Shown here in pieces: positions 17,390 to 44,614 of a stretch of DNA of 64,000 nucleotides; positions within the stretch are counted from its first letter, which is position 1; every line of letters starts with the position of its first letter. The DNA lies in NCBI RefSeq assembly GCF_964355755.1, contig NC_092678.1, forward strand, positions 23,168,365 to 23,232,364, given 5' to 3'. The position numbers were made by a program, and so were the translations under genes. Source of the DNA: Antedon mediterranea (taxonomy: Eukaryota; Echinodermata; Crinoidea; Comatulida; Antedonidae). Below the pieces are notes generated by a model. The model saw nothing but the letters and a program-made list of their open reading frames with translations. It did not search any database and was not told the origin of the DNA.

Positions 17390-20300
17390 TTATTTGTCAT
17401 CTAGCATTCTGGCCAACTCGTCCATATTTGGCGCAGCCATTACACTTTTTTTCTTTTTCCTTCGCTCAGCCTGTCTCTCCTTGATAAGTTTTTGTCGCTC
17501 CTTCTCTCCGAGACGTTGATGACTTGCTTCGCTAGTCCGTTCATCTGAAGGATTTGAATCCGTCTGATCATCTCCCTAAAGTTGAAATAAAGAGTAATTA
17601 CTGTTCCACAATTCCAATAATTCCACAATATTTAAATCACCCCAAAGTATGTAAGTCATTTTTAGACAGGGGTACTTCGGAGAGGAGATATGCACCACTT
17701 GGAGATAAGGCCTGTGTATCATATATGATGAGTGCAACTACTAATTCTCCTATGGAAGGAATTGGTGCACTGTATCTCATCTGCTACGCCCCTACAATCC
17801 TCTAGGTCATGGGACAACTAGAACTAGAACTTCTGGTTTGTTGCTATTGTGCATTTTTCTCCGAGCAAATGGTTGCATCATTCAGATATGGTAGGCGTGT
17901 TAAGGGAAAGATCAAGAGCATAGGAAAACTGTAATTGCACCAATTTCGGAGGATTCCATGGGTAAGTAACTTATACTGAATGGTAGGTAACTGTGCAGAA
18001 AACTCATCACCAACACCAAAATAACAAAATAGGGAACTTGTAAACTTTAATAATAATAATATAGAACATTTATGGGGAAGAGAAATGGTAACAGTGTAAA
18101 GGGGGTAAGGTAAATATGGGAGAATAAGCCATTTGAAACAAGGAAGGAATTGTGAAAAGGGGTGTAAGTAAATCAAACAGAATAGTCCTTTAAATAAGGC
18201 AAATTAAGCCAATATTAATTCAGTTTGTGATGACGAAAAAAGAACGATTAAGGTAGTTGTAAATATGTGAAATAAATCCACTTGAATAATTATACAGTAT
18301 GTGGTTAAAAGGTAGATGTAACAGAGGGTGTAAGTTAATAAGACAAACCAATCGATTTTTAATTTCAAATATGGTACAATGAATTAGAATGGTCAGAAAC
18401 AGAAGGCAAATTAAGCCATTTATATAATCAATGTAGTTTAATGACTGATATGCCATGTGTAAGTTATTCTGAAATAAGATCAAGTGATAAGAAGTTCCAA
18501 TAACCTTGTTGATTTGTTTAAGTTTTAAGAAGAAAAACAACAAACGGTTTTATTTATCATTTAAGTAACCCTAAACCTTTGATTGTTAATGTTGGTAGCA
18601 TTTTCCCGATTTGAATAATTGAAGGTTGATGAAAATGAGTGGTTATGTTAATAATAATCAAATTAGATAAAAAAAAAAACCTAAAAAAAAAGCTTTTAAT
18701 AATAATATCTTTATAAAAAAAACAATTGTGCAATAACGGAAACAAAGGGATTATTATTTCATACAGATAAATATTAAGTTCTTGCAAACAGAAACAGAAA
18801 TATATTAATCATTGGCCAATAGTAATAAAGGTCAAAGGTCAAGTAGGTTATTATATACAACACAGCATGTCTCAAACTTGGGTTACTTGTTTACCTGCAG
18901 TAAGAATTGCTTTAACTAGTATCTTCGATATCCTTCAGCTTAGAGTAAAGCAAAAGCAATTTTAATTTATTACGAACATTTGATTAAATTTATGAACAAA
19001 ATAGGTTAAGAAGGACCTGTACACTTTCCATGTAAAATGTATATTAACATGGTCCTCAGCATACTAAGGAATGTTGGATTCATGTCTGTCTGAGGGGCAT
19101 CTTGTCCTCTAGATGAGATGCCACAACATGGCCCATACACAAAAACACAACAAACTTTACACAAATTTAGAAAACTCAACAAATACAAAATTAATTACAC
19201 AGCCTATGTAAATACTAGAGCATGATTGGTTGAAAGGCATCACATGAGCACAAAATTAGTAACTTACAGCTTTTCCTCCAGCCTTGATTGATTTTGATTC
19301 TGACTTGAACTTTGACTCCATTTCCTTCGCTAGTCGGTCCATGTCGGCTTCGTTCATTTGCTGAAATTTCTTTGCACTTCCAACTTTTATTTTCATTGTT
19401 TGTGTTCGTTCGTAGCGAACCTTTTGAATTCTATCTTGTACAATAGTCTTCTGTCTGTTCAGTTCATCCTATATGGTGTAAAAATAATTTTCATTATCAT
19501 TATTACTTTAATGTTTTTATCACATATTTAAAATCGCCAAGTAAAGATTTGTCTAATTTTGTATTTTATAATATAGTATTATATGAGTACAGAGTCTGTT
19601 AGTTCATGTATGAAAGATATGGTCTGTTCGATACGAAGGTCAAAAGGATCCTTTAATAAAGGTCATACTATCGCTTACAGTCTTTAGCTACATCTCTCTG
19701 CACCCATATAATATAATATGGATTTACAGCGTTTGGGAAGTTTATATATATATAATTTATCTTGATAATATTACCTTTTTGGCATTCTCCACAAACGTCT
19801 TTTGTCTCTCGCCCATTGATAACAGCTGACTGGCTTGATTGTCAAGTTTGTTCTTACGATCAGCTAATCTTTGACGAATCTGTGAAAGCAAAATGTTCAG
19901 AAAGTTAACACGCTAATAATGTCCATGTTTAGTATGATTTTTAACATGTTTGGGAGGAAGCAGAATTTTGAAATCATAGGGAGAATTAGTTTTCAAAATG
20001 TGCCTATCTTCTAATTATCAAATCTACAAACTAGAAATTGATTTTCAGACACAGCTGCTGCACACAGTAGGATATCCAGTTGCGTTGGTGTTAAGATTAG
20101 CTGTCTGCAAATAGGGTACTAACAGTAGCTTACCCAAGGCCACGTGTATATCAGAATACTGACGGTTCAAGATCAATTTCGTTAATTTTTACTAACTTGT
20201 TTTGTTTGTTTTTCTTTTTCCCTGATCATCTTCTCCTGCTGTTGTCGGTGATCTTCTTTAAGAGACTCAATTATCTCTTGTTGTCTCTTCTCCGATACTT

Positions 20301-23300: not shown

Positions 23301-26300
23301 ATCACATTTTTTTGTCAATTTAGTTAGCATTAATTTATAATAAAAACAAAACAATATAAACATATGAAGTTGTTTCCAGACATGTAAACTTATTCCTCAA
23401 GGTTTCTGAATAAAATTTAATAAACAATAATTTATTTTATCGCATGCAATACTTATGTAAAATTATTTATTTTTACAAGTTTTATTATCTGTGAAGAAAG
23501 GCATTTCTGCATAAATTAAAGACAATGATCTACAATGACTACCAAGAAAAGCTGTAACTATTTTTTTGTTTATTATTTTTTCTTTGAAAATGAAAATAAT
23601 TAGCATAATCGACCAATCTAAATCTCAATATAAAGCACAATTGTCACATTGATCTTATTGGGAATTGAATGCAGAGTTTTCTGTATTTTTATATTATTAA
23701 TTTCGACCAACACACAAACAAGACAAAATATAGCTAGATTGTGCCTAGGAGTATCATAGTGAAGTGTCTTAACAACTCGGGTAAATCTACAATATTTTTA
23801 TTGAAACTATAACTTTTCCCAAAAATGTCCCAAAAATCTAATTCAAGGGGGACAAGAAAAAAAAAACCAAATCTTACCAGCAAGCGCTGCCTTCTTCTCA
23901 TTTTCTAATTTATTGTCCATGTCTTTGAGTTCTTTCTCCTGATTGGCTATGTCGATTGTCATGGACGTTATGGTAGCGGCGGTGCCTCTAGCTTTGACAC
24001 CTAGCAAGCCGTTGGACAAGTTGTCCATCCAACCTTCACGGCGACCTTTACGTTGATCTTCTTTCAGACTCATCAGAAGTTCTTCATCCTGAAATGAATA
24101 ATTGAGGAATTTAATGTCAGGTTTTCTTCAAAATTATCAGTAAATTTGGAGAGAAAAGGAGGAAACAATTAAAAAAACAAGTTATGAATTATTCAGGAAA
24201 AAATCTCTGTTTTTAATTACAGTAACTTGTTTTAGTCAGTGGCAGTAATTATCGCTGTTGGTTCGAATTGAATAAAATAACAAATAAAATAATAGTTTTA
24301 TGTACATTTTTTATAATTTATTAATTTTTAGTCAGATTTAATAGGCACTTTGAGCGCTGAAGGCGCTATCATGTATTGAGCGCTGAGGGTGCTATCATGT
24401 GTTGAGCGCTGAGGGCGCTATCATGTGTTGAAAGAGAAAACCAATATACATACCAAAATAATCAACGAAATATAGTAAAGCCAAATTCACACTGAGCCTT
24501 AAGTATTGCACAATTTGTGATGACTTAAGGGACTGTTCACACTAACTCATTCTGGATATGTCATAATAAATTCAGGCCCATGTGAGAGTAGCTTAACAAC
24601 AATTTAAATACGTACAGCATTAACTGTAAGAATATTTTTGACTGAAGTGACTTCTGAAAGTTGCTTCTGTTGTAAATCAGCCAATAGGATTTCAGGAACT
24701 GTTTCGTCTAAGTTGGTTTCTTCTCCTTTCTTTGTGTTAAGTATATGCCGCCTTGTGTCTGTAAAAACAGTTTAAAAACAAAAGGTTATCACTAATAATA
24801 GTAATGATTAATATAACGCTTTTAACTTAAGTGACAAAGCTCTTCGCATCAAAATGAACTAATAAAGAACTAAAAAGCTACAGTTACATTAAAACTAAGA
24901 CTAACAATAACAAAATATTACACCAAAAAATTCTAAGACGACTAAGGATCAATTGTTTGATTATTACCACTCATTAGCATAATGAAAATAACTGTTAAAT
25001 TTTGATTATTTTTTGTGAATAAATACCGATTTAATATAACTTAATCATGTAGTTTTAGACAATTTTTTAATTTTACCTTCAACTTTTAATAAAACCGCTT
25101 CTTTTAGTATTCTATTTTGTCGTATTTGCCGTTCTGCTATATTAGCAAAATGGTCGCCTACACCGAATGGTGATAGTTGAAAATAATCCACGTTATCTAG
25201 TTCACATGATGCTTCTTCACGCCATACTTGGCGCTCTTCGCGTAAGTTGTCAACTTCGGCCGCAATTTCCTTTAAAAGAAATGACACCGATTAGAAAAAT
25301 TTCACTTAAACATGTCACTTAAAATTTCACTTTTAATGTTATTTAAAATGTTACTTTAATGTAACTTTTAATGTTATTTAAAATTTTATTTTAATGTTAC
25401 TTAAAATGTTACTGCAATGTCACTTAAATGTTATTTTAATGTAATTTAAAATGTCACTTAAAATGCCACTTTTAATGTCACTTAAAATGTTACTTTAATG
25501 TCACTTAAAATGCCACTTTGAATGTAATTTACAATGCCACTTTGAATGTAATTTACAATGTTACTGCAATGTCCCTTAAATGTTTCTTTTAATGTCACTT
25601 TTAATGTTACTGCAAAAGTCACGTAAATGTTCTCTTTATTTGCATATACTTTAACATCATTTTGTTTATTGAAGTGACAAAACCATTATTTTACTTCTAC
25701 TAATTATTCTTATTTTATAATGGCCAACAAAACTTTATTGTTGTTTTATAAACAGTGTCATACCTCGTTTGACATGTTCTTGACTCGTTCAGTGCCAACA
25801 TTGTCTCCATTAACTGCTTTCAAGAGTTCCATTAATGTGTCTCTTTCATTTACTTGCTTCTTTTCCATTTCATCAAGTACCTCCGTATGCAATGCAATGA
25901 GTCCTAGAAAAAGTTTCAAACAAACAAATACAAGATTAAAGATTACTATAAAATAAATTGAGATTTCTAAGCACACTCTATTTCAATGTATTTCTTTATA
26001 CATTTATTTAATAGGATGATTGGAATGGGAGAAAACACAAATTACCAAATAAAAAATACTAAATAAATATTTTTTGAAAACGCTTAAGTAGAAACCAATT
26101 TCTTTAAATTCTATCTCTCATAATATTTGCAATTCTCAAACTTATTTTTGTGGTACTGAATCTTTTAAAATCTCTTAAAAAATTTATTTTGTCTTATTGT
26201 TGTCTTTTGTTTCAATAAAGGAAGATAATGAACTAAAATAACAGGCCATCTTTAAATGATATTAAACCCCACAAAAAATGTACATTAGTGTTACTGTAAT

Positions 26301-29300
26301 GAAAATATTTCCCCTCAAATTGGTGATTCTGGTATAAATGGGAATCTGTATTAAGTTCTTGGATCTATCTTTAATTATTTAATTTAATTAATTAATTAAT
26401 AATCTCCTTATTGAATATCATAAGATGAGACTTACTATCTTTAAGAGACATTTTTTTCCTTGCATCAGACTTAGCATTTTGTTCCTCTTCTTGTTTTAAC
26501 TTCATTTCTAGCTCAGCCTTGCTATATCCAGTGTATCTTTTTCTTCGCTTAGCTCTTAATCTTTCTCGTGCTAATTTCTTTTGTTTTTCTCGATCTCGTA
26601 GAAAACTGAAAAAAGAGAAAGAACAATATTTAATTTCCATTTAAACGTTAAAAAACATAGTATAGGACATATATATATAGGACATATATATAGGAAAACA
26701 CACAAACTCTATAAATAAAAGAAGTTGTGTTTAGATGTTTATAAGGACAGAAGAACCCCATTGAAACCGTTGATGGAAACATAAATAGAGATAGTTCAAT
26801 TTGTAACAAATGTTTTAGGAGATAAATATGTATGCATAGTGAAGCGTTTCTTGTCGTCTGCATCTAGAATCTGCCAAAACAGTGTAAAGGAAATCAAGTA
26901 AAGAATCATGTCCCAATGTCTCTGAATGCGCACAATAAATTAACACAACGTAATTAGTTCCTAGGTCGTCGGCAATCTCTATTACCTTTCTTCAAATTCC
27001 GCTTTACCATCCCTTCCTAATTTTACAAAACTCCTTGTCGAAAAAGTAGAACTTGAAGAAATATTTGAAATGTTTGAAAAACTAGACATAGCCCTAGAGT
27101 CGGCAGACAACAAGGACAAAGAGGAACCATTTTCATCAACTGGGTCTTTTTTGGTTGAATACTGGAACCTCTGCCACGGTAATTTCTCCCAGCCGTCTTC
27201 CTTATTTCCAGACATACAAAACATCATACTGTTTACACAATATCAATTCCGGAGGACAATGTTAATTCCGTTTTTAAACAGCTCTCTTTTAACGCCTTTT
27301 CAAGCAGAATAGCACCCAATAACAAGAGAGTAATAACTACTTCATTTTAACAGCAAATTGAGTATCAAATTATTAGTTATAATTACTAATAACTAATAAA
27401 TGTTTCTACTTAGTTGTTATTAAGTCTTCATTAAGCTAACAGAAGTTAGCATTTGTTGTGAATCAATATTTTCTTTACAAGAGTCAGGTATTGTAATGAT
27501 CAATAATAACTTCATAATTTCCATCTAGGATCAATACAAGTGATCAGAAATCAATGAGGCGTGTATGTTACTATGGCAATCGAGAAATAAAAAATATTAC
27601 CTAATAAATGTTCAATATATATACCTTTATGCGGTAATATAAAATTTCAAAGGAAGTTTAATTATAATTATCATCATATTACTTTTCCTTTTAAGTAGAT
27701 TCCACTTACTACAATATATAAAAAAATATACATATTTTATACAATAACCCCAAGAAATAAAACCAAAATCAGGGGAGTGGAAAATAGATAAATATATGTT
27801 TATTAAACAAAATCATACAAAGTAAATTGAACCAAAGTTTGATTTTTTTAAATATATTAAAAGTAAAACATAAACGACATCATAGTATAATGATGATAAT
27901 TTCAACAGATTGGTGAAATTTTTACTATATTATTTATTATCTGTAATTATAGATGTGTTATTGATTATTGCGTTACCATGATAATATTAAACTACACCTT
28001 TAATGATGCTTGATGCAATTCCAGAGACTAAATCAATATCTAAAATGTCTTTTTTATTTTATAGCATCTGGGATCATGAGGCTAGATTTGAACCCGGCAC
28101 CAAGTGGCAGGCAAAACAACCATCAAGCTACAGTATGAGACTAGCCATGTTGAATAAAGAAAGATAAAAGGGTGGAGTATATGGAATGTGGGGCAATCTA
28201 ATCGCATAACATCAATTGTGCATAACAATATTGATTTCGTAAATGAAGGTATCATCACATAAAAAAAATACTTGTATGCGTCATTACTTTCTGTAAATCG
28301 TTAAATAAGTCAATAATTAAAAGGAAGCGACAGACTACAATTTCAATCTATATTACATAATTATTCTATATACTGATATCTCCACATATGACATTGCATG
28401 ACCAGCATCATAGGCAAATTCCTTAATACAGTATCACATATGTATCACAGGGTTAAAAGGTATGGCCTGTGATTCAAGCATCACATGTGATACTTATGTG
28501 ACACCGTATCATAGAATTTGCCTATGACACTAGACAAATTATAGACATGTAAACAGTATACATTCTCTTCTCAGCCATGAGGCAAATCAATTTAGTGAGG
28601 GAGAGATATTTAATGCATCAGTGTTATTGTTGTGTTTATTGCTCAGCTTGTATTTTATGTACAGTCAACTTTAATTTCAAGAAATATTTTTATTATTAAT
28701 AAATTATACTATACTAGCCGTTGCCCATCCAATGGACGAGCGAGCTTTTAAGTGATTTTGAGGTTTGAGGTACCAAACGTAGTACATTAGCATGAAATTG
28801 ATGTATAATGAATAGAACAGAGGTGTATAATATAGATTATAATATATATAAAGTTAATAGGCCTACCGTATTCTTATAGGAAGACAGAATGTCTGCATTC
28901 TCACTCCTGAGGACGATCATTGATCGAAACACTCAATCTAAATACTAAATATATACATGGTCTTACCGTATACTTTATATCAAAGAAAGGCGGAAAGTTG
29001 GTTTTGTCACAATTACAAATATTTAACTTGTAAATTAAATATTGTCTTTTGTATAGACATGATTTTGTATGTATGTTGGATGTATATCAAATGAAATATA
29101 CCATAAAAATAATCAATATTTGAGTATCTATGTTATTTTTTAAAAATTCTTCTGTAAACAAGAATTATAATTTAAAATGCAGTGAACTTAAATAATACAG
29201 AATTTTAGTACACTGTAAAAATGTTTTAAACCATGCAGTCACAACTGAACAAAAAAATGATAATTTAAGCAAACAATCCCCTTCCGGGTGACTACTTTTT

Positions 29301-32300
29301 GCTTATATTATTTTTTTTTCGGGTAAATACATTTTTTTTTAATCCAATTTTTGGTCAAAGTGATTTACTATTATGTGACATTAAAATGGCATATCACAAT
29401 AAAAAATATTTAAAAAGTAATTTTTCCAGGTGGAAAATTATCTTTAAATAAGCATTTATCATCTTGTTAATATTATTTATTTATTTTTAATATTATTATA
29501 ATTATATGTCAGTCACTGACGCAATTCAATTTAGTGAGGGATAGATATTTAATGAGTATCAATGTTATTGTTATGTTTATTGCTCAGCTTGTCTTCTGAT
29601 GTTTGTTTTTTTGTTTCAAACATTTTGTATGTACAGTCAACTTGAATTTAAAGCAATATTTGTTCTAATAGTATATATTGTGTATTGTAACCAGGGGCCC
29701 CAAGGTCAAGCAGTCTTATAAAATACTGTACAATACATGAATTAGTAAATGTATATTTTATGTTTGATCTAATAGCTAATATCGCTTTTTACAGAAACTA
29801 TAATAATGCAATATATGAATAGCATATTTCTCAATGTCATTTGTCTCATTACGTTTTTGTTTCTAAAAGTGCAAAACGATTAGAGCATAAATAACGAAAA
29901 AATTGATATTAGACAAACTCTATTTGCAGTTCTTTTCCTTTACATTTAGTTAATGAGCAAATATACTGAATTATTATCATAATTACAATATTTTCAATGG
30001 AAATATAACTTGCTATCTCATATCTCCTCCACTTCTTCCTGAATATAATATTTGTAGCCAATCAAATTGTCGTAACCGTTAACCTTGTCACATTACCTTT
30101 CATATTAAAAATTATTAAAAAATACTAAATTAAATTTGCAAAAAAAAAAAAATGAGTCAATAAAAAAATTTGGATGCATAATGAAATTATATTTGCTCAC
30201 AAAATTATCATAACTAAACAACCAGCCAGACAAATATATTCATGGTTCATGGAATATAGATGTCATGATTATTTTTAATCAGGGAAATTTCAAGGTTAAT
30301 AATATTTTAAAAACTTACCATTCTTCTTTATTTTTCTCGTGAAGCTGTCCAAGGCTAAATATGAGGGCGGCAGACGTGAAGTTGTCTTCATCACGCATTA
30401 GACGCTGATCTCGTCTTAACATTGAGAGCGCTAGTTGGCGCTCTTTTTCATCTTCCAGTTCATCTTGCTTCTTTTTTAATAAGGCTAAAAGAGCTTCTTT
30501 TTCATCTTCAAAATGTTGGTTGAGGTATTGTAAAACATTCTGTCAAAACAGGGATTTAAAAAAAAATGTCACACGGCTAAATTTAGCACAAGTCTGGTAA
30601 TTAATGTTGGCCTAGCTAATCTATCATTACTTGTATCTTACAGGGCCTCTTTTACTTCAACAGGCCTTTACTGCGTCACTAATTTAATGGCCTAGTAAAC
30701 TCACCCTCCGTTTCCTGCTCTGCTCCACTTCCTCTTCTGCCAGTACTATTTGCTCAAGTTCTTCCTTATCAACAGCTTCGCTTGCTTCTTCCCTCTCCTC
30801 TCTTAACTGCCGTAGTCTCTCTAATCTCTTGTGCATAATAGCCTTATGTTCAGCTCTGGTGTACCCAAGTAACAGGGCCAATTCTAAAAAAAACACCAAA
30901 ATAACTTCTTAATTCTACTACAATAGAGATTACTATTCTGATTTCTATGATCTGTACAACTTTTTAAAATCTCAAGCTTAAGTGCCAAGTCTGATGTGCC
31001 CAAATATGGTAGTGATATGCCCAAATATGGTAGTAATATGAACGACACCATCATGTCCATATTCATTCATCATGTCACATTTTTTTGTCACATATAGTTT
31101 GATAGTGTAGACAGAGCTTTAGATTCATTGTGTCAACTAGGTGGCATTATAACATGTTAAGATACTGCAGATAATCTCTTAGGCTAAGACACACAGACTT
31201 CCAGTAAAAGTTAGTGTACTGCTAAGTGTGCCTACCGACCTGATTGGTTTTTGATGTCATCTCCCAACAGTGCTAAAGCTTGGTCATATTTTCCTTGCTT
31301 ACACAAGATCCTCTGTTGTAGCTTCATTTTAGTTACTTTAGCTTGACGTTCCTTCTCTGACAGCTTAGCCCATTCCGCTTCACCCATTTGCTTCATCAAA
31401 GCCTAGAAGAAAAGAAGATTAACCACCCTTAAAAGTAAATGGAACAACCCAATGCAAGATATTGAATGAATATTACAAACAATACAGACTATAAAAGCTA
31501 CAGTAAAAGAATAGAAGAGGAGATATATATACAAATATCTGAACACCCCTAAAATTAAATGGAATAACCCAATTGAACTTTTCCTCCCATCAATATAATT
31601 TAATTTTAGTCTACTCTACGAAGATAAAATTCTGCAAGAACTCTTTCATACTTACATCCATAATGAGTTTGTCTCTGAGGGCATCATACTTATTCTCAAC
31701 AGCCTTGACAACCTCCAGCTCTGAGATGACCTCTAGTGGTGCTTTGACCTCCAGCAAGGTCATCGCTACGTTGTCATTCCAGGAGTTTGATCTTGCTTCA
31801 TACTGCAACATCTTAAGCTGCTTCAAGACGGGGAGAGACTATGGAAAAGATTTTTAAGATATAGATAAATGTGTGTATGACAAAGTTGTGGCTTGATGGT
31901 TATGATGCTTGGCTTCCAATCAAAGGGTCCTGGGTTCAAGTTCTGTCATGTCAGGATTTTTTCTAATGACAAATTATAACTCCACTCACAAAGACTTGTA
32001 ATAAGACTTTGTTTATATAGAGCATCTTGTGTATTTGTTTGTCTTGTAAACGGGATTGCCACCTTTAAGAAGGATAGTGAATACATTTTCTTATGGTTAT
32101 CTAGCAAATTGAAGGTCACCAGAAAACAGAAGATTTATTTCACCTTTGTTTTTAAATCTTCCATCAGATACTCCGCCTCTTCATCCTGATTTTGCTGAAG
32201 ATCTGCGAGTAAAACAACTTCAGCATCATTGTCTGTTGCATCAGGATTGGTAGCTTGTAACTCTACTAACTCTATTTCCATACTGTATGGAACTGCTTTC

Positions 32301-35300
32301 TAATAAACAAAAAACAAAAATATTTATATAATCATTATTTTAAATAAACTGTATTTCTTTAATAAAATATTTGGTCTGGCTAAAGTTGAGTGTAAAAGAG
32401 AAGGTAACATACCTTGAATATGCCAACCTGTTCTTCCTCATTTTCTTTCTCTGGTCCATCATCTCTCCACTGCCGTCTTTGTTCTTTAAAATCCAACATC
32501 TTCTTCTGTCTTTGTTCTTCTGTCATTGCTTTGACGGTCTTCCGTACCTTGGTATCTTTGTCTTGAAGAAGCTAATAAATACAGTGGAAATTATATAAGT
32601 AGCCTAGACCACTGAATAAGTAACCTTTATATATCTTAAAGACCTCCTATTGCTTAAGACTAAAGCGCAGTCTACACTATCAAACTTTATGTGATGTGTC
32701 CATATATGGACATGATGATGTCATATCACCACCATATTTGGGCATATCCCCACCATATTTGGGCATATCACTACCATATTTGGGCACATCACACCTTTTT
32801 TGATAGTGTAGACAGAGCTTTACGTTCAACTACCTTTTGAATTTTAAGTAAGTAAACCACATTATAAACAAATATTTAAAGACAAACGTACCTTGATTAA
32901 AACATCTCTCTCTGTGCCATGTTTAATCTCCATCTCTTTGATAACTGCATCTTCCATGGCAACTCTGCCATCTGCATCATCTGGCATTGGTACTGGACCT
33001 TTATCTTCCACTTTCTCTTTAAGCATTTTCTTCCTCTTCTCAAGACGATCTTTCGCAAGTTGTAGCTGTCTTTTACGCTCTTGTTCTTTCATTTTGTCTC
33101 TGTTGGTAAACATTTATCAAATATCATATTTATCAAGCATCTCTTGAATTTTGAGCATCCACTCTAATAAGCTTACAGTAGTTAGATGATTATTTATTAT
33201 ATTTAAAACAACATCGCATTTTCTTTTTTACAAAGTGTTATTTTGCCAAAAGAATTCCCATTAAAAATAAAAATCAATTAGATAACATACGCATCTTCGG
33301 CCTGAGCAGTAAGCCCCATGACTAAGGCAGCAGCTTCAAACTGATCTTCTCTGCGCGCCATTCTCTGTTGTCGCTTCAGCTTGGCTAGCTCAACCTGACG
33401 CATCCTCTCGTTGGCTAGTCTTTCGTCGCCTTCCCTCATCCTCTTTAGGAGTGCTTCACGTTCCTACACAATTAAAAATAATTAATCTTAGAATTGAATC
33501 CTCCAACAATCTTGTCTTCTCGTATAAGACTATAAACCAGTATACACAAAATGCTTGTGTGCACTTTAAACCCTAGTACATCTTTCGAGACAAGTTGGGG
33601 GTTACCCCGGTGTACTAATTCACACAGACACTACTTAAAGAAGGCCATCTAGTACGCCTCCTAGTTGCAACATCTTCAACTTTTGAAGGCGGCAACTTAA
33701 TAGATGAAAAAGAAGAAGAAAAAGAGGACAATAATAAACTAACTAACTAGCTTGTTGGAAAATATAAATATAAAATCTGGCAACACCAGATGGTCGCCTA
33801 CATCATCCAATCTGTTGTCCAACTCCTCTAGAATATTTCTTGGCTTTTTCTTTTTCAGTTCTTCCTCTTCTTCTAAAATCTCTTTCTTTTCTAGTTTATC
33901 TGCTTCTTCTGTGCTCATACCTGTTACAAATAAATCAATCAATTTTTAACCAAATATCGAATTAAATGAAAAGTCAAACCAGATAAAAACATTAGTTCCT
34001 TCTAATATATATATTTGAATACATGAATGCAATATACAACTCCCCTCAGGATGGGAAACTCATACTTTCTAAGCTAATTCTATTATGAGAATAACTATAT
34101 TAGCTATCAGAAAAATCTTGGAACTTTAACAGGATTTGAACCAAATACCCTGGGATTGGTAAGCAAGCATGTCAAGCCACATAATTCTTACCTTCAGAAA
34201 TGCGCTGTTTACGCATCTCAAGTCGCTTTCTCATCTTTTCTTCTTGCGCCTTTTTTGTATCTCCCATCAACAGTTCCAAGGCCTGTTGTGATTTGATAGC
34301 GTCCCCTAGCAATGCCGCTGCCTCGTCGTACTTCCCTTCTTGCCGGAGACGCTTTTCCTGAAGCTTAAGTTTCACCAGCTTAGCCTGACGCTCTTTTTCG
34401 GATAAATTAGCCCACTCTGCCTCGCCTACTTGCTGCATTAGGGCTTCAGCGAGTATCTTATCTTTAAGAGCATCATACTTTCCCTCCAAAGCCTCAACAA
34501 TTTCAGTGTCACCTGTTGTCTTTGCTTTATCGATCCTTGTTAGCGTGATGGCAACGTTCTCAACTTTTTGTTGCTTGATTTCGGTCAGGTGTTTTTCTTG
34601 AAGTTCAACAAGATTATCCAACTCCTAAACACATGTCAAAGTTACAAATGTTAAAAACATTAATATTTTAAATAATAATAGAAATAATCTATTTAAAGGG
34701 AAAGAAAAACAGAGACAAGACTTTTGTTTGAATAACAATGGTCCACTGGCCAATAGCCAGTTAAATGCATGGCGGACCAGTTAAATAGTATAATAAAATG
34801 GCCAGTTAACATTTCAATAAAATCTGACGAAATATCAATAATTTTATTCAATTCATCTCTTCACGATATTTCACACCTGGACTAATTTTATTTTTATTTT
34901 TATTTAATTTATTTCAACCAAATTTAATGAGGGTGATCCATCCAGCAGTTGCTGATCATTTGGGATACAATACACAAAATACAACAAGAACAGAAAAGTT
35001 AAAGAAAAACAAAAACCAAAAAAAATACAAAAATTACATGAGAATAAAAATTTGAATAAGAAAATTTGGAAATATAGAAAATAATTAAATTCATAGAAAA
35101 TAACTAAATTAAACAAGGTAGATGTAAACAAGGTCGATATTTTATATATTTTTCTTACCTTATTTGGTAATGATTCCAGAACAGTTTCACTCTCTTTGTC
35201 CTGTTCTTGCTGCAAGTCAGCCATGATTGTTACAATTGCTTCATCATCACTGACCTCTGACCCCTTTTCTTTCGACAAAACATGCTTTCTAGAAGCTAAT

Positions 35301-38300
35301 TTCAAAAGCGCTGCCTCTTCAAGAATTTGCCTGTGTTCTTCAGATGCTACATCAAAAAGTACAGAAAATGAACAAATCTTTTCAGAACATACAAGATATT
35401 TTGGAGCAAAGTTCTATTTAAAGTTCTTTAAATATTAGTTAATTCTTATGGGATACAAGTTTAAAATAGCCAAAACTTGTGTTCTACAATGAAGGAACAA
35501 ATGACTCACATGTATCCATCCCTCGTCTTTTTCCAATCAGTTCTTGGAGTCTTTCTTCCCTCTCTTCTTCCCTCAATGTCGACGCAATTGTTATTTCTTC
35601 CTCTGTGTATTCTTTCTGAAGCAGTATCAACATCTGCTCCTGTTCACGTTCATGCTTCTTTTCCAGAATCTGCATCACGGAATCCTATAATAACAAATAT
35701 TACCTTTAATGATGCAATAGTTGACAAATAATGAATTTTGCCATGCAATGGTATAAATAATGCACTAGTGAGTTCTATTTAAAGCAGTATCAACATCTGC
35801 TCCTGTTCATGCTTTTCTAGAATCTGCATCACAGAATCCTAAGACAATAATGAATTTTTGTTTAGTACACAAATAATGAATGTTTACGAGTGCAATGGTT
35901 ACAATAATTAATATTTATAAGTGCAATGGTACAAATAATGCACTAGTGAGTATAAGCTACGAAATATGGTAGAAGACAATTATTTAAAATAGTCTCACCT
36001 GCATAGCAGCTCTATCTCCATTATTCAGTATGGTGATTTCCTTTTCAGCTTTTGATTGACCTATTTGGCGTCTTTTCTTCAGAGCTGCAATTCGTTCCTT
36101 GGCAAGCATCTCTTGTCTAGCTCTGTCGTTCTTAAATCTATGAATAAATTAGCAATAGACAAATAAATGTTAAAACATGTATTCTCAATATAGAAGTGGC
36201 TGTATTCACTATTCACACTTTAGAGAAAGAAAAGAAAAATACTTGCTCTGAACAAAATTTTTTTTAAACTAAGTGAATACCAGGGGCTTCTTTAAGCTTA
36301 AGTGAATTAGTATTTACTATTTAAGGAAATCTCTCACTTAAGTGTGATTGGTGAATACAGCTATTGGCATAAAGAATTTACTTAGACATTGCATTCTTAG
36401 TAAAAACTGAACCATAAGTTACCTCTCAGCATGAGCCTTCTGATGACGTTCTGCCAACCCCAGCACAAGAGCAGCAGACTCAAAATTCTCCTCCATTTTG
36501 GCTCTACGTTGTTCTCTCTTAAGCCGTGCGAGTTCTGCTTGTCGTTCTTTCTCGCTCAAAAATTGATTGTCCATACCGCGGAGTCTAGCCATCAGCGCAT
36601 CACGCTCATCGTCGTAGCGTTTTTGGAGATCAAGAAGTGGGACTGAACTCTCGTCATCTTCATCCTCTGATAGGCCATCATCATCTTCATCAGGATCTAG
36701 GCCTTAAATATAGGAGAAAAAAAAACACTGTTCTTAGCTACCACTATTTTTATTCAATTCACAGAAGTTAATCTCACACTCCTAATATTTCATATTTGTC
36801 TATTTCAGTAAAAGGAACTTTATATGTAGGGGCGATGTAGGCCTTGACTTTGTATCAAGAACTGTAATGATTTAGTACCTTGTTCAACCCTCTTTCTTCT
36901 AGCCTCTAGTCTCCTTTTAAGCTTATCTTCCTGCTTAGCTCTGTTCTCTCCCATCAAGGCTTTCAGGTTGGTCTCTGTCATAAGGTTATCTCCTAACAAC
37001 GCCTGCAACTCATCTAACTTCCCTATAGAGAAATCAAAATCCTTATCAATTATCATTCTCATAAAAACAAAATAAAATAACAATTCGTCATAGTATTAAG
37101 ATAGATATGTAGTGGAGTTGTAGCTTAGTGGTTAACATGCTTCCTTCCAATCCCAAGGTCAAGGGTTCAATCCTGACCTAGTCCCAGGTTGTAACTCATG
37201 CCTCTTTCAACTACACTCCATAAACTTCAAATGAGACTTAGTTTATAAGCATGATAAACGATAAAATAGTTTATCAATCAATATAGAAATAAAAATATAA
37301 ATACTACCTTCTTTTCTAAGTCTTCTTTCTTCCAGTTTCAACTTCATCAATCGTTTTTGTCTTTCTTGTTCACTCAGCTTTGCCCATTCACCCTCTCCGG
37401 CTTGTTTCTTCAAGCTCTCCAACAACAGCTTGTCTCTCAGTGTATCATATTTTTTATCTAAGGCCTGATAAATAAAACAAAAATAAACAACTTTGATGAT
37501 TTAACAGTTGGGAATAATACTTCCATTATTGTAGTCCTATGCCAAATGACAAAAAAAATTTGTTTTGTTTATATATTTAGGAAAATTTCCAAGGATAACC
37601 ATAAGCAAATTTATTTACTATCCTTCGTAACAGCGGCAGTTCACAAGACAAACAAATATACAAGATTCTCATTACAATTCTTTGGAGTTCTGATATGGCA
37701 GGACTTGAACCCAGGATTGGTAGCCAAGCATCATAACCACCAAGCCACTAATTTACTGTCATACCTTTAGAAGTTCATCTTCATCGCCAATTCCTTCATA
37801 TTCAGTAAATACCGCAAGAATGTTATGCCCAACATGGTGTTTCCTTTTCGTTATCTCTTCATATCGAAGACGAGACATCTCTTCTTCATTCTAAAACGAA
37901 AAATTATTAGATTGATTACGCCAACTCAGACAGCCTGACGAGTCAAGACATTTAGTTTGAGTTGAATCTTGAGAAGAAGAAGCATCGTACTGTAGAGATC
38001 GTAACGTAGTTTTTAGGTCATCGCAAGAACTTTAAACATTCAGTTTAATTTTCTCTCGAAGACTCACCGGGAGTTTATTGTACGATGCTGTCTGAGTTGG
38101 CCTTTATACATTTATTTGGTAAAGAAAAAAAATGTGTTAATAGAGTACATAAAATTGTGTTTCATTTTTTCAAATTTGTCTACATACCATGTTTTCAAGA
38201 CGTTGGATAATCTTCTCACTTTCTCTATCTTGCCTCTCTTGAAGATCGGCTAAGAGCGTAGTTACGACATAGTCAAGGGTAACTTCCTCTTCTTGTTTTT

Positions 38301-41300
38301 TGTCCTCTAGAATGCGGGTACGGACAACTGTTTTTATGGCACCAGATTCATCTAGAATCATTCGGTTTTCTTCAATATCATCTGTACATTCATAAAAAGA
38401 AAAAGTTCTTTAGGTTTTAGTATGGCATACTGTTTTCAGAATAGAATATTTGTATACAGGGCTGTGTAATGAAAAAACAGATCTAATAGAATCATTTTAG
38501 TCATAATAAAAAATTTAAAAAAATAGAAAACAATTTTTTTTGTTTTGCTGACATTGCTTAGTCATAATATATACATTTTTAAACAGAGCTTTTTTTTTGG
38601 TGACATTTTTTTAAAGCAAAAAAGTAATTATGACCCTTGACCTCACCTTTTGTATAAATATCAAGTTCGTCTGCCTCTGTTTTCAGTTCTTGTAGTCTTG
38701 TCTGTTGCTCATTTACATTCATTTGAGTGGCAGCTTCTCGTAGCTCTTCACTGCCCTCGTCCATAACGACAGTGATGAGTAACTCATGCTCTGTGCGATG
38801 TTTTCTCTCCACCTCTTTCATAACAGATTCCTTCCATCCAACAATATCGCCTTTAAAAAAAAATTTAATGAATTTGTTGAAGTAAGACGCAGCAAGAACA
38901 ATATAAATCTATATAAGGAACAATACCATTTTTTAAAGAGAAAAAATTGATGCGTTTTGGACAGACAGTAAAACTGACAAACCTTTTTCTGGTAGAGCTT
39001 TTTCTTCTACTTCTTGTTCCATTTCTTGTCCGTTATTTTGCCGTTTTTTACGTGCTTCTAACCTTTCCCGTGCTAGCCTCAACTGTCTTTCGCGATCCAT
39101 TCTCAATCTGCCCGAATAAAACAAAACGCACATTAAATCATAACCAGCTCATATGAAAATGGCCAGATTCCACAGGCAAACTTTAAAAAAACTATTTAGA
39201 AGCATGAGGAAATTATTATCCTATTATAATTTCTTACTTTTCTTCAAGTGACATCTTATTTCTCTCAGCTAGGCCTAGCAATAGAGCAGCCTCATCAAAA
39301 TTGTCCTCCTTCTCAGCCCTTCTCTTCTCTCTCCTGAGCCTCAGAAGTAACGCCTGGCGTTCCTGCTCACTCATATACTGGCCATGCTGGCCTCGTAGCA
39401 GCTTCATCATTGCTTCTAGTTCATCATCAAATCGCAGTTGAATGTCTTTCATAATGTTACCAGACGTCTTGTTCTCATTCAATTCAAATTCTATAAAAAC
39501 AAAGAAGTAATTGAATTTGTAATATAATGTGTGTCATTTAAATTCAACACAAATCAATACATGCAAAAATTAAATAAATCAACTCAAATTTGATAAAATT
39601 AATTTCCATACCCTCGTCTTCATCGTCTGTGTCCAGACCTTGAGCTTCCCTCTTTTGTTTATTCATCAGACGTTCTTTCAATTTCTTCTCATACTCTTCT
39701 CTGTTTCTTCCCATAAGGGAAAGTAGATTTTTCTCTCTCTAAAAAATTAAAAACATTTTTAATGATTTCTCATAGAATATAACATAAGTGTGATTTCACA
39801 TAGCAAATAGAGGGCAGTATTTCATTTACATCTGCAATCAGGAGTTAAGCTCTGTCTACACAATCAAACTTTATGTGACAACAAAATGTGATGTGCCCAT
39901 GTATTAACATGATGATGTCATATCACTACCATATTTTGGCACACTTTTTTTTCAAACAAGTTTGATAGTATAGACAGAGCTTTAGGGGGTTTGGGGTAAA
40001 CTTCACAGAATGCCATAGCTTACATTTCCAGCATCTCCAATGAGGCGACTGAGCTCGTCCATTTTTCCATCCTGTCGCAATCGTCTTTCTTCCAACCTTT
40101 TCTTCATCAGAAGTCTCTGTTGCTCTTCCTCTGTCTTCTTGTTCCATTCTGCCTCACCAAACTGGTTCATCAAGGATTCCACCAGTAACTTATCTCTATT
40201 AACACAAGAAAAAATACAAATGAACAAAAAGTTTCTCAGGTCAAAGGTTACCAATCTTTCTATATGAATACTTTATATTCTAGTTACCTTAGAACATCAT
40301 ATTTCTGCTCCAGCGCTTCGATGAGTTCTTTCTCTTCAGCTGTCAACTCAAAGCTACCGAGGATCACCATGGAAACATTGTCCAACCACTCCTCAATACG
40401 AGACTTAGCTTCTTTCTTAATTAAGTCTTGGAGCTCATATGAATCCTGAAATTCAATGAAGATTAAAGAACATTTTTTGGATTACAAATGGACTTGTTTA
40501 TGAAATGGCAACAGAAGTTATCTTGGTTAAAAAAAGGTGCAAACACCTTTAAAAGCTCTGTCTACACTATCAAACTAGTTTGACAAAAAAAGTGTGATGT
40601 GCCCAAATATGGTAGTGATATGCTTAAATATGGTAGTGATATGACATCATCATGTCCAGTGTAGATGGAGTTTAAATGAAAATATGAAAGCATACCTTGT
40701 TGTGCATCTCCATAATCATAGCATGGATCTCAGTACATTGCTGTTGTTGTAGGTCAGCCAGAACTACAGCAGCAAGGTGAAGGTCATCAAGGTTATGACC
40801 TTTGACTTCTTCACGTCTAAAAATAGAAGTAAAAAAATGTTGATATAACATGTGAAAGTTCTTGGAGATTTCATGAGTCAAAATACAGCAATGAATCCTC
40901 ATAAATTATATCTGTCTACACTATTTAACTTTTTGTGACAAAACAATGTGATGTGCCCAAATATGGACAAGATGATGTCATATCACTACCATATTTGGGC
41001 ACATCAATACCATATTTGGGCACATCAAACTAGTTTGATAGTGTAAACAGAGTTTAAGATTTCATACAGAAATTCAGATTCTTTTGCTTCAACGATCAAA
41101 AACAGAATTTAAATGGCGTCAACTCGTTGATAAAATTAATACATTCCCAAGATCAAATTTCTTTACCTGTTCTCAAAGTATAGACCAACGCCTTCCTGTA
41201 GAATCTTCATATGAACTGAACGTTTTGAGACTCGATACTCTGACGAGCCTTTCCTCCAATTCTCCCTCTGGCCACGAAACTCCTTTAAGCAAGAGTCTCT

Positions 41301-44300
41301 GACATCTTTGTTTTTGTTGCGTGCACTTGCTTTTGCATACTGCGCTTCTTTATTTTGCAGAAGGAAGATAAGTATCTAGATGAAGGAAATTGTTGTTAAT
41401 ATATCGTTATATGTTTTTATAATCAGAAATAAGGTTAGTAGTTTATGGTAGCCATGTTGTGATAGTTCTTCTACCATCAACTGATTTCTAAATCTGTGCG
41501 CCTTAAGTACTCTTGAGTGGTATGTGCACAATAGATAGAAATCTAAATATAATAGCAATGCATATTATAGTGCATTGTGTTATAGCCTGACTCATCACCA
41601 TAGTGAGTTCACATCTAATTGTTTTCATACCTCTCTTTCCACAAAGTGTTTTTTAGCCATCTCGTTCAAGAGGTCAACTTGGAGATTGACCAGTCCTTTA
41701 TTTTCATTTTCATACCAGTCTACTGAAAGCCGTTTTATTTTTTTGCCCTTCCGTTGAGTGAGTCTTTGAAGGGCTAGCATCTCTTGTAAGTCTCTATCAT
41801 AGTCAAAGCTGTGTAAAACAAAATGAGATTAATAGAAATGTTATTTGATACTTTTCCCAATGATTTGGACTGAAGAGGAAGAGAAAAGGAAAGATAAATG
41901 GAAGTTGGGAGGAAGGGAAGTGGAGGAAAGGAAGAGGATACAACGAAGAAATAAATAAATAAGAAAGAAAGAGAAGAGGAATGGAAGTAGGAGGGAGGAA
42001 GAGAAGAGGAATGGAAGAGACGTGGGGGAAAAAGAAGAAGAATAGGCGAAGAGAAAGAAGAAAAGAGGAAGAGAACAAGAAATATCAGAATAGTTGAAAG
42101 TCAAAATGATTACTTTGAAGCCTTGAATTCCTGTGGTCTTTCACAAAGTCCAACAGTTATGGCACTGTACTGAAAGGCTTCCTCTAATGCTGCCATGTAG
42201 ACCTGCAACATGATGTGTGCATATGTGGTGATCATCTCCTTCGATGTCAATGTCTGGTTGCCACTGCCTTCCTTAAGGACCGAGAGTAAGTATTCCTTCT
42301 CATGCTGGTAGCGCTTATGAAGATCAACCAGTAAATGACCTCCAGTTGTTTCTCCTGATAGATACAACGGAAATATGGTGAGATAAAAATGTTTAAGAAC
42401 TAATGCATTGCAACATAGTATAATAATCAAAGCTCTGTCTACTAACAGATTTTATGTGTTAGTAGACAGAGCTTGCTTTATTATATAAAAAAAAAAACAC
42501 AGATTTTATGTGACAAAAAATGTGATGTCATATCACTAACATATTTAGGCATATCACTACCATATTTAGAAAAATCACATTTTTTTGTCAAACTAGTTTG
42601 ATAGTGTAGACTGAGCTTAAAGCTTTGTTCTCACTTGGATGTAACGCAAGTAAGTTAACCAATCACAAGCGATGGATTATTCAAACAGTCATGGATACTG
42701 TGTTGCTCTTGTGTGTATGCGTTGCATACTAGTGGGAACCAAGATTTAGATCTATAACACATAGTACCTTGAATGGATTCAGCGTATTTGTTAGCAAACA
42801 AAATATAAATCTCCTCATCTGTTCTTCCATCAGCTTGCAAGAGTGATGCCGTCTGCTTCTGGTCTTCTAAGTACAACGCATGCTTGTCCTGGCTGTAGCC
42901 AATCACAGCCTCTAATTTAGATGGGTATGTGTGTGAAGCAATATCTAGGCCTAGAATCTTGTCTGCTGTACCTTGACGCATGTACTCATTGACTCTCAGT
43001 TGAACTTGAAGCAATCGTTCCTCGTGCTCGCTCTCTGTCATGGTAGACCAAAGCACCTCACCAGTTTGTTTTCGTATCAGCTCATAAAGAAGCTTTTCTT
43101 TCAGGCTGTTATACTTCATGTCGATGGCTTGCATCATCTCCGTTACAGACACACGGTTGCGGTAGTTCTGATTGATGTCATCCCAATCCATGCCATCATC
43201 AAAGAGCATCGCCTCAAGACCCAGATGGTTCCATCTGAAGCATAGCAACAAAAATTAAATTTGTTTTCGTAGTATTTTACAGTAATTTTGACTTAAAAAC
43301 TACCTACTTTTATAGGAAGAGTTTGGTAGCCGAGTGGTTAGGACACTCAACTGTCATAACTTCCAGTCTAATCAGCTGTAATGAGTACCTGGTTGAAAAT
43401 GCTAGGGAGGATAAGGCAGCGTGGAAAGGAACTGGCCACCCAACCACATAGTTCAGTAAAACTTTATTAATTTGTTTGGTTGTGGTATACAAAGATATAC
43501 GTTAACAAAGAACACAAAAATACAAGCACAATAATCAAAATCTAAAATATGATGCCAATCATTCCTCTACGTTCAGAATATGAAAGTGGGACTGAAGCTG
43601 AAGCTCTCTCTACACTATCAAACTAGTTGATAAATATATGGTAGTAATATGCCCAAATATGGTACAGTAGTGATATGCACAAATATGGTACAGTAGTGAT
43701 ATGCACAAATATGGTAGTGATATGCCCAAATATAGTAGCGATATGATATCATCATGTTCATGGGCACATATTTTGGTCACATAAACTTTGATAGTGTAGA
43801 TAGAGCTTTAAACCAGTGTTTGATCTACTCACCTTTGAAGTTTTCTCCTAGCTCCTTGTCTAAACTTGTCCCTGTAGTCTTGCTTCTCACGTGCCTGCAG
43901 GGATCGTATCTGTTCATCTTGTTCTTGCACTTTCAAAAACTCCTTGTGATTCTCAAATTCTTTTTCAATCTTCTGGCTTTCAAGTTTGTTACACTCTGTA
44001 AGAACGATCGAATCCTGACACGGTGGTCCATCCGGTACAGCACACAGGAACATGCGAACCTCGTCAAAACAAATATCGTCTTTGGTAGATTCACGATTCT
44101 CTATGAATTTATTCCAAGTGTTCATTGAAAACTTTTCCTGGTGAGTAGCTAAAATGAAAATATTATAAGGGTAAAAAAGAAGGAATGAAAAATTAAAAAA
44201 AGATAAAATTACAGAAGGGCTGTTTAGTATTCTATTCTGGTCTCAACTGGTCTCAACTGGAATTTTCACCTGGGCTAGCCCTGAACATGGATAAGTACCT

Positions 44301-44614
44301 TTAAAGAGAAACAGCGTATCCTTGATAGAAATGACGTCACATCCATCTCTGTCAAGAGCTTTGAAATCCCACAATGCTTGATTTTCTACAGTCCTACGAC
44401 GCTCCAGCTCGAGTAGAACAGGAAGGAAGTGTTCCCGTGTACACAAGCCTCCCGACATTGGCCCACAAACGGATTTGATGGCTGGGTGAATGTGCTGCGG
44501 GAATATTGGTGAACGATGGATGGTCTCATCAAATCGTTGAACATCTTCAGCTGTGATGTAACCATTTTGGGATGTGTCAAGGAGATCAAAGAATTTTAAT
44601 GCTTCTTGAGACAT
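17390..44614 (-). CDS. Giant EF-hand / tandem-module coiled-coil protein (about 2,720 aa), unnamed
   Basis: About 44 coding exons with consistent frames. Splice positions are accurate to a few bases: 44299-44614, 43833-44148, 42768-43234, 42114-42354, 41631-41808, 41167-41375, 40696-40816, 40289-40446, 40025-40199, 39613-39738, 39239-39491, 38983-39109, 38647-38852, 38190-38383, 37767-37890, 37309-37466, 36881-37022, 36422-36702, 35999-36137, 35509-35684, 35160-35347, 34195-34626, 33802-33921, 33300-33465, 32892-33100, 32413-32571, 32144-32299, 31658-31839, 31240-31402, 30705-30883, 30320-30540, 26436-26608, 25765-25904, 25077-25270, 24616-24759, 23880-24090, 23050-23131, 22645-22829, 22109-22240, 21712-21732, 20197-20310, 19774-19879, 19267-19469, 17390-17577. 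The order is EF-hand head, five homologous modules, charged coiled-coil tail ending MDELARMLDDK. There is no signal peptide or membrane segment, so it is probably cytoskeletal or a scaffold. Function unknown; similarity searches might return only trichohyalin- or golgin-like hits because of composition. It could instead be two genes (see 26986-27227). Confidence 0.8.
20640..20710 (+). mobile_element. Retroposon 3' end with A-rich tail
   Basis: The phrase gttagtggcggtatttattg, then ctgttggttttgattgaata and poly-A. The same phrase recurs at 24235-24292 (gtcagtggcagtaattatcg, ctgttggttcgaattgaata). Two copies sharing an internal end and an A-rich tail point to retroposition. No coding part is visible. 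Confidence 0.5.
20845..20970 (-). mobile_element. Fold-back MITE copy 6
   Basis: Left terminus ttaagccttgtctatcaaac, shortened core with one unit, right terminus gatagtgtagacagacctta. TTAA is seen at both edges. Confidence 0.85.
22368..22625. repeat. 22-bp minisatellite, about 12 copies, in a giant-gene intron
   Basis: Near-perfect tandem copies of tccaggggtgtgtaatacta followed by ta, with a tata/tatg variant at the junction and one 2-bp deletion. It ends within about 20 bases of exon 22645-22829. Copies are very homogeneous, which indicates recent expansion. Confidence 0.95.
22926..22977. mobile_element. Fold-back MITE copy 7: terminal repeats only
   Basis: aagctctgtctacactatca is followed after about ten bases by tttgatagcatagacaaggc. 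The whole core has been lost, leaving a 52-bp near-palindrome. Confidence 0.85.
23162..23318 (-). mobile_element. Fold-back MITE copy 8
   Basis: Left terminus aagctctatatacactatca, three core units with a variant (tatcactaccatatttagga), then tttttttgtcaa. The right terminal repeat is missing. Confidence 0.85.
24340..24432. repeat. Short tandem repeat, about 28 bp, three copies
   Basis: gagcgctgagggcgctatca followed by tgtgttg is repeated three times with small changes. Each unit contains a small inverted repeat (agcgc..gcgct). Confidence 0.85.
25290..25640. repeat. Degenerate AATGT(T/C)ACTT repeat field
   Basis: About 20 imperfect repetitions of a phrase close to aatgttacttaaaatgtcac fill most of this intron interval. 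Unit length varies, so no clean period can be given. Confidence 0.8.
26986..27227 (-). CDS. Probable alternative first exon inside the giant gene
   Basis: Starts MMFCMSGNKEDGWEKLPWQR, continues through a Ser-rich stretch, and ends KAEFEER. The donor AAAG/gtaat follows at 26986 and leaves the same phase (two bases) that the next exon (26436-26608, FLRDREKQ) requires. Upstream there is no good polypyrimidine tract, so it looks like a promoter-proximal coding exon rather than an internal one. It sits in the longest intron of the gene (26608-30320). A transcript starting here would encode a product of roughly 890 residues: a Ser-rich leader, the second half of module 5 and the tail. Confidence 0.55.
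27310..30319. other. Long intron of the giant gene: repeats, no exon seen
   Basis: AT-rich. It contains a tRNA-like SINE remnant (28045-28140, minus), an inverted repeat (28405-28530), and two related segments (28575-28700 and 29510-29690) that share tcaatttagtgagggagaga, gtttattgctcagcttgt and tgtacagtcaact. No coding exon is recognised on either strand. Confidence 0.5.
28405..28530. repeat. Inverted repeat with about 42-bp arms
   Basis: The left arm begins tcataggcaaattccttaat. The right arm, read in reverse complement, begins tcataggcaaattctatgat. Both continue through versions of tcacatatgtatcac, with about 35 bases of loop. This is probably a second, distinct fold-back element. Confidence 0.75.
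30978..31123 (+). mobile_element. Fold-back MITE copy 9
   Basis: The left terminus is degraded. The copy has tgatgtgcccaaatatggta, two core units, and right terminus gatagtgtagacagagcttt. Confidence 0.85.
31885..32105 (+). mobile_element. tRNA-derived SINE, subfamily 2
   Basis: The head has tRNA-like Pol III boxes (tggcttgatggttatgatgc and gggttcaagttc). The body continues to gtatttgtttgtcttgtaaa and aaggatagtgaatacatttt. The same head and body occur in inverse orientation at 37555-37762. It lies in an intron of the giant gene. Confidence 0.7.
32661..32823 (-). mobile_element. Fold-back MITE copy 10
   Basis: taaagcgcagtctacactat start, three core units (catatcaccaccatatttgg and variants), and right terminus ttgatagtgtagacagagct. 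TA flanks both ends. Confidence 0.9.
33530..33735. mobile_element. SINE-like fragment related to 52797-53085
   Basis: Shares with the later copy gtgtgcactttaaa..ccta, gtacatctttcgagacaagt and gggg..gtgtactaa.tcacacag, in the same order. The 3' part is a purine-rich stretch ending in aataaactaac repeats. Confidence 0.55.
34880..35125 (-). mobile_element. Dispersed SINE-like repeat (ATGAGGGTG..CCATCCAGCA family)
   Basis: Contains aatgagggtgatccatccag, cagttgctgatcatttggga and an A-rich tract. Related copies are at about 3030-3135 and, in inverse orientation, at 54128-54202. It lies in the intron between modules 3 and 4 of the giant gene. Confidence 0.55.
35700..35990. repeat. Tandem duplication containing a vestigial exon copy
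   Basis: Segments near 35700-35790 and 35860-35950 both carry tgcaatggtataaataatgc / tgcaatggtacaaataatgc followed by actagtgagt. Between them, 35788-35840 repeats the 5' part of exon 35509-35684 (agcagtatcaacatctgctc and gaatctgcatcac) with a short deletion. Confidence 0.75.
37112..37265 (+). mobile_element. tRNA-derived SINE, subfamily 1
   Basis: A box tagcttagtggttaacatgc, B box aagggttcaatcctgacc, then the body ctctttcaactacactccat and gacttagtttataagcatga. A very similar copy lies inverted at 52375-52540. The body after the B box does not fold into a tRNA, so this is a SINE and not a tRNA gene. Confidence 0.75.
37555..37762 (-). mobile_element. tRNA-derived SINE, subfamily 2 (inverted copy)
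   Basis: Read on the minus strand: agtggcttggtggttatgat, then cctgggttcaagtcctgcca, then a body with atatttgtttgtcttgtgaa. It matches 31885-32105. The short frame at 37546-37770 is an artefact of it. Confidence 0.7.
38190..40446 (-). other. Giant protein module 2 (exons 8-14, about 413 residues)
   Basis: Sub-blocks are in separate exons. D1/D2: ALEQKYDVLR then DKLLVESLMNQFGEAEWNKK. E: LLSLMGRNREEYEKKLKERL. F: QLRFDDELEAMMKLLRG and NFDEAALLLGLAERNK. A: RQLRLARERLEARKKR. B: VERKHRTEHELLITVV. C: LDYVVTTLLADLQERQDRES. This copy and module 3 best define the consensus. Confidence 0.8.
39845..39984 (-). mobile_element. Fold-back MITE copy 11
   Basis: ttaagctctgtctacacaat start, one full core unit, and right terminus gatagtatagacagagcttt. 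The flanks read TTA on both sides. Confidence 0.9.
40552..40674 (+). mobile_element. Fold-back MITE copy 12
   Basis: Left terminus aagctctgtctacactatca, two core units, and the right arm truncated to cagtgtagatggagttt. Confidence 0.9.
40906..41059 (-). mobile_element. Fold-back MITE copy 13
   Basis: Left terminus tctgtctacactatttaact, core units catatcactaccatatttgg and catcaataccatatttgggc, and right terminus tttgatagtgtaaacagagt. It abuts exon 41167-41375 of the giant gene. Confidence 0.9.
41870..42090. repeat. Purine-rich tract of about 220 bp
   Basis: The plus strand is almost entirely A and G (repeated ggaagaggaa, agaaagagaagaggaatgga), in the intron between exons 41631-41808 and 42114-42354. 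Two overlapping Ser/Leu/Phe-rich minus-strand frames here are shadows of the tract. Confidence 0.85.
42429..42619 (-). mobile_element. Fold-back MITE copy 14 with a nested hairpin
   Basis: Left terminus aagctctgtctactaacaga is immediately followed by its own inverse copy (tgtgttagtagacagagctt). Then come poly-A and a second element body with two core units and right terminus gatagtgtagactgagctta. Confidence 0.85.
43316..43440 (+). mobile_element. tRNA-derived SINE fragment
   Basis: ggtagccgagtggttaggac resembles the D-arm region of a tRNA with a long variable arm (Ser/Leu type). It is followed by non-tRNA sequence including aatgctagggaggataaggc. It lacks a complete tRNA fold. Confidence 0.45.
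43602..43811 (+). mobile_element. Fold-back MITE copy 15, expanded core
   Basis: Left terminus aagctctctctacactatca, five core units (two with a 5-bp insertion, tacag), and right terminus gatagtgtagatagagcttt. It is among the largest core expansions in the window. Confidence 0.9.
43833..44614 (-). other. Giant protein: N-terminal EF-hand head (exons 1-2, residues about 1-210)
   Basis: Starts MSQEALKFFDLLDTSQNGYI. The first EF loop, DTSQNGYITAED, has acidic or polar residues at positions 1, 3, 5 and 12, with Asp instead of the usual Glu at 12. The second loop, DRDGCDVISIKD, is less canonical. A third, degenerate helix-loop-helix is seen in STKDDICFDEVRMFL. Then a charged coiled coil begins. 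The layout resembles EF-hand regions of cytoskeletal or ciliary calcium-binding proteins. Calcium binding is plausible for loop 1 and uncertain for the others. Confidence 0.65.

Follow-up and report, generated by a model that had tools for sequence, protein, structure and literature searches.

We describe here a single-copy gene of the crinoid Antedon mediterranea whose protein, about 2,730 residues long, has a predicted EF-hand head followed by five homologous modules of roughly 410 residues each and a basic C-terminal tail. At a probability of roughly 0.55 we read the product as an elongated, almost all-helical calcium-sensing scaffold that runs the whole ~2,730 residues. A more tentative suggestion, which we consider doubtful as yet, is that the module represents an undescribed, animal-conserved class of non-heptad helical repeat, built from four nested units of ~70-125 residues, which would give a calcium-regulated rod a fixed spacing of binding sites. 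All positions below are those of the window, the 64,000-nucleotide stretch of contig NC_092678.1 (23,168,365 to 23,232,364, forward strand) that was analysed, and the features of the gene are collected in Table 1.

The gene lies on the minus strand, and exon-chaining by dynamic programming gave 45 exons with 8,190 bp of coding sequence for 2,729 amino acids. All introns are GT-AG, the sole stop codon stands at the very end (17392-17390) with none internal, and the start codon is the ATG at 44614, immediately 5' of which TAG TAA is in frame. A first-pass annotation made by reading the letters had placed a giant gene of about 44 exons here, and the unbroken chain recovers the same two end points. 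This is a model predicted from the DNA rather than from transcripts, hand-pruned and checked by module homology, and two seven-residue exons near its 3' end (21732-21712 and 20528-20508) are uncertain. Three micro-exons offered by the chainer were left out of the model, since they sit within repeat-derived sequence or are not needed for the conserved phase-2 intron to join module 5, and the exons that the chainer had appended from FBXL5, recognisable by hemerythrin-like and F-box domains, were removed. Single-sequence queries found one copy of the gene in its own genome.

Several other genes and repeats share the window. Downstream of the giant gene lie the FBXL5 orthologue itself (~8540-14520, minus strand), with the same two domains, and a 180-residue open frame on the plus strand (14840-15400) homologous to SPMIP1 (PF22589, E 2.6e-39), the best PDB match of which is chain ATP6V1FNB of the sea-urchin sperm doublet (8snb, E 2.3e-83); mammalian matches reach 1e-20, a contrast that, for this one neighbouring gene, suggests an echinoderm. 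Upstream, head to head with the giant gene, is an apparently intronless DUF4504 (C1orf74-like) gene (45175-45990, plus strand); the two start codons are ~560 bp apart, and the two genes may share a promoter. Also upstream, both on the minus strand, are a MANF/ARMET gene (46900-47770) and a serine/threonine kinase gene (50380-61200), the latter with a Pfam kinase domain and, by eye, TBK1/IKK-epsilon-like. Reverse-transcriptase-like retroelement fragments occur in several plus-strand frames at 57665-58831. A fold-back repeat family, whose arms CTCTGTCTACACTATCAAACT flank a 21-bp minisatellite GTGATATGCCCAAATATGGTA, is present at 31 sites on both strands of the window where 0 are expected, many of them in introns of the giant gene.

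Table 1. Features of the giant gene and example sites of the fold-back repeat, in window positions.
Feature	Residues	Position	Strand	Basis or remark
Whole coding region	2,729 aa + stop	17390..44614	-	45 exons; splice-consistent chain
EF-hand head (exon 1 + part of exon 2), predicted	1-150	44015..44614	-	PF13405
Calcium loop 1, DTSQNGYITAED, putative	13-24	44543..44578	-	canonical loop pattern
Calcium loop 3, DRDGCDVISIKD, putative	88-99	44318..44353	-	canonical loop pattern; second and last match
Linker, contains an intron	151-240	43147..44014	-	no match to modules or Pfam
Module 1 (M0)	241-653	40335..43146	-	blastp E 4e-15 to 3e-32 vs other modules
Module 2 (M1)	654-1061	37789..40334	-	43% identity to M2, E 2e-85
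Module 3 (M2)	1062-1469	34508..37788	-	module alignment
Module 3 units, start residues	D-E ~1066, F-A ~1190, B ~1306, C ~1407			
Module 4 (M3)	1470-1883	31728..34507	-	38% identity to M2
Module 5 (M4)	1884-2365	23924..31727	-	3.7-kb intron at F/A boundary; homology both sides
Conserved phase-2 F/A intron, module 5		26606..30318	-	position and phase as in other modules
Conserved phase-2 F/A intron, modules 1-4		begins after 42114, 39238, 36423, 33291	-	
Basic C-terminal tail	2366-2729	17393..23923	-	net charge +22 (composition)
Fold-back repeat CTCTGTCTACACTATCAAACT, example sites		39850-39979, 40556, 41032, 54066-54262		

We note that the head was the one part with an EF-hand match when all parts were scanned against Pfam to E 10. 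PF13405 (EF-hand_6) scored 26.4 bits on residues 1-148, above its cut-off of 25, and PF13499 came just below its own (27.7 bits, cut-off 30). The canonical 12-residue calcium-loop pattern matches twice in the 2,729 residues, both times in the head, where shuffles lead one to expect 0.03 matches; the later of these loops, DRDGCDVISIKD, is atypical at position 5 (Cys) and position 6 (Asp). The head likely comprises four EF-hands, two of them with canonical loops and two (EF-hands 2 and 4) apparently degenerate. A single-sequence model of exon 1 gave the helix-loop-helix order correctly at poor confidence (pLDDT 49), and the PDB search with the head returned myosin light chains at E 0.26, as expected of any EF-hand. 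By profile cut-off and loop pattern together the head, and the head alone, would be assigned to the EF-hand superfamily, which is also how it had been read in the first pass.

The five modules occupy residues 241-2365, with lengths of 413, 408, 408, 414 and 482 residues and an identical order of blocks. Pairs of modules are 22-43% identical over nearly their full length (blastp E 4e-15 to 2e-85), their local alignment scores stand 19-48 SD above block-shuffled controls, and 39 alignment columns are identical in all five; module 1 is the most degenerate, at 22-28% identity to the other four. The GE.EW anchor recurs at residues 269, 682, 1092, 1497 and 1914, a spacing of 413, 410, 405 and 417, and LADLQ or MADLQ at 595, 1006, 1409, 1825 and 2288. 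These recurrences and the full-length matches bear out the five ordered-block modules that had been proposed from inspection of the translation.

The modules have introns in common as well as residues. Two are found in all five at the same position and phase, a phase-2 intron at the F/A boundary, which falls in the same alignment column in four of the five modules and is gap-shifted in module 4, and a phase-0 intron that follows LADLQ. Counted over every pair of modules, 17-18 introns are shared, as compared to a mean of 0.4-1.0 and a maximum of 4-5 under random placement (2,000 trials), and the modules therefore descend from a cassette that already contained introns when it was duplicated in tandem. 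The proposed exon-for-exon match of modules 2 and 3 holds for number and order, with seven introns in each, while position and phase agree at just three of the seven boundaries. Identity between these two modules at codon positions 1, 2 and 3 is 0.55, 0.66 and 0.36, and agreement at fourfold sites between modules is at about the random level, that is, saturated. Since the fourfold sites are saturated and positions 1 and 2 conserved, the duplications are old and the protein has been under purifying selection, and on that account relatives of the protein in other animals are likely; orthologues may already stand in databases under uninformative names.

Within the module there is a further layer of repetition. 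By hhalign, blocks D-E are homologous to F-A (probability 94%, E 1.9e-8, 95 columns), and on this profile comparison the two are copies of one ~100-residue unit. In a tree all D-E units separate from all F-A units with a bootstrap of 98, the tail unit being counted with F-A, and the internal duplication therefore predates the duplications of the module. Blocks B and C might be shorter relatives, a marginal case with comparisons at E 0.002-0.4. The units are unequal in size, at about 124, 119, 92 and 70 residues, and the tail carries a partial F-A-like unit that clusters with the F-A units (UFBoot 98). The seven-block series described at first reading thus keeps its order and is refined in its content, with D-E and F-A forming one duplicated unit of which the tail holds a partial copy.

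The modules gave no Pfam family over threshold. Sub-threshold matches to HSBP1, PEX11, UPF0180, YIEGIA and TPR were single, differed between modules and were set aside as chance; the TPR repeat (PF13414/PF13374), for instance, reached 14.7 bits with a cut-off of 26.8, at a GKYDEAAALL stretch. Searches of the PDB with single sequences and with the module profile gave no convincing match for head, modules or tail, the viral and prokaryote collections held no relatives of the protein, and a literature search on EF-hand giant repeat proteins and on trichohyalin-like sea-urchin proteins found nothing on point. The earlier remark that the blocks fit no named family agrees with these results for the modules, and as far as Pfam goes the module is a domain new to the catalogue.

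Giant repeat proteins that begin with a calcium-binding domain are usually found to be rulers, springs or scaffolds. For the present protein we infer calcium binding, a rod shape, a scaffold role and anchoring, and a possible sequence of events can be outlined. Calcium would be bound by the EF-hands at the N terminus, and the protein itself, or a partner, would change state. The modules, five of ~410 residues each, would form a long rod, or a chain of short helices, as distinct from a continuous two-stranded coiled coil, and would present the same binding surface five times along it. The basic tail, for its part, might anchor the protein to an acidic surface, for instance tubulin tails or a membrane.

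Alternatively, the protein might be a structural component of cilia or axonemes, for instance a calcium sensor sitting on the microtubules of motile cilia or of sperm, as the first-pass annotation had guessed in calling it possibly ciliary or cytoskeletal. We regard this as the strongest of the other readings and nevertheless as unlikely. The charged helices of the modules and the basic tail would fit a microtubule lattice, the gene for the sperm microtubule inner protein SPMIP1 is nearby (14.8-15.4 kb), and doublets of echinoderms are known to contain EF-hand proteins (PMC4067180). However, SPMIP1 is convergent with the giant gene, so the two do not share a promoter, and a strict RFX X-box is absent near the giant gene's start. 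Further, the solved structures in the PDB include the 96-nm axoneme of human and, from sea-urchin sperm, the 48-nm doublet 8SNB (PMC10973386). The neighbouring SPMIP1, serving as a control, matches 8SNB at 2e-83, whereas head, modules and tail match no solved structure, which gives the giant protein no evident place in the solved sperm doublet. No feature of the gene itself supports the ciliary guess directly, and a diverged or non-doublet ciliary protein is the form that it might take.

The calcium-sensing scaffold also has to be set beside a more ordinary explanation, namely that the protein is a conventional long coiled coil like ninein or a centrosomal scaffold, headed by EF-hands, and that its repeats are a by-product of such sequence. 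E, K and R are abundant and helix is predicted, as such a protein would require. A model of the D-E unit of module 4, which lies whole in the exon at 34192-34624, was built from 144 residues around that one unit with the homologous exons as alignment; it is all helix (pLDDT 79.5, pTM 0.42) with a break at the conserved EGK. A fold search with it returned nothing below E 1, which is to be expected of a short all-helix model. What speaks against an ordinary coiled coil is the hydrophobic periodicity. In a simple test with few control exons, the positive controls being myosin-tail and spectrin exons from the same genome, power at 3.5 residues was 3.7 for the myosin tail and 3.5 for spectrin, as compared to 0.4-0.9 for the modules, so that it is present in both controls and in none of the five modules. 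For lack of that periodicity the modules would not be a generic coiled coil. An ER/K single-helix pattern test gave no excess. The conserved glycines, the tryptophan, the identical block order and the shared introns also tell against repeats as a by-product, and the module profile matches no coiled-coil protein in the PDB. The outcome that the first-pass annotation had named as counting against its reading, a search with nothing beyond generic coiled-coil hits, did not arise: the Pfam and PDB searches gave zero coiled-coil hits. We thus think an ordinary coiled coil improbable.

The resemblance to trichohyalin deserves mention, since the S100 fused-type proteins (trichohyalin, filaggrin, repetin) have the same broad plan, N-terminal EF-hands and then a giant charged helical repeat region, and on that model the product would be cross-linked into a tough intracellular matrix. 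The S100 fused-type genes consist of three exons, of which the large third one carries every repeat (PMC2668185), whereas the crinoid gene has 45, with its repeats spread over more than 30. Its head is four-EF-hand-like, its modules are ~410 residues long and well conserved rather than short and degenerate, no sequence similarity was found, and no S100 family appears among the Pfam matches to E 10, all of which makes a trichohyalin-like protein very improbable. Least probable, to the point that we give it hardly any weight, is that the exons belong to two or more adjoining genes or to a decayed one: the predicted gene is known from DNA only and module 5 contains a 3.7-kb intron, but the chain is unbroken, with compatible phases and no internal stops, module 5 homology resumes across the large intron at a conserved intron position, and codon positions 1 and 2 are constrained.

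If the calcium-sensing scaffold is accepted, the giant protein offers a concrete candidate through which calcium might control a large cell structure, and a module that lies outside both the Pfam models and the coiled-coil rules would be one more repeat type for the catalogue. Should orthologues be present in other animals, the module alignment could define a domain family; should the protein be confined to one lineage, it would be mainly a local curiosity.

Among known systems, ninein and ninein-like combine N-terminal EF-hands with a long helical body, a heptad coiled coil that lacks long tandem modules. The crinoid protein shares with them the EF-hand N terminus and the long helical body, and differs in that its modules are without heptads. 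The rods of spectrin, alpha-actinin and the plakins share with it tandem helical repeats, elongation and EF-hands in the same chain; spectrin units are three-helix units of ~106 residues, have the 3.5-residue periodicity and are accompanied by EF-hands at the C-terminal end, and Spectrin (PF00435) has no match in the modules and 84 matches elsewhere in the same genome. One spectrin-repeat gene of this genome (L033, G000:C1:39195900-39205800) is itself an unusually long intronless spectrin, its codons running on without interruption for at least 3,299 (the frame as a whole is reported at 3,586). We know of no sequence similarity between nebulin and the giant protein, yet the plan is comparable, since in nebulin small units are nested in larger super-repeats; that nested-unit plan is shared, while the sizes of the units differ and those of the crinoid protein are unequal.
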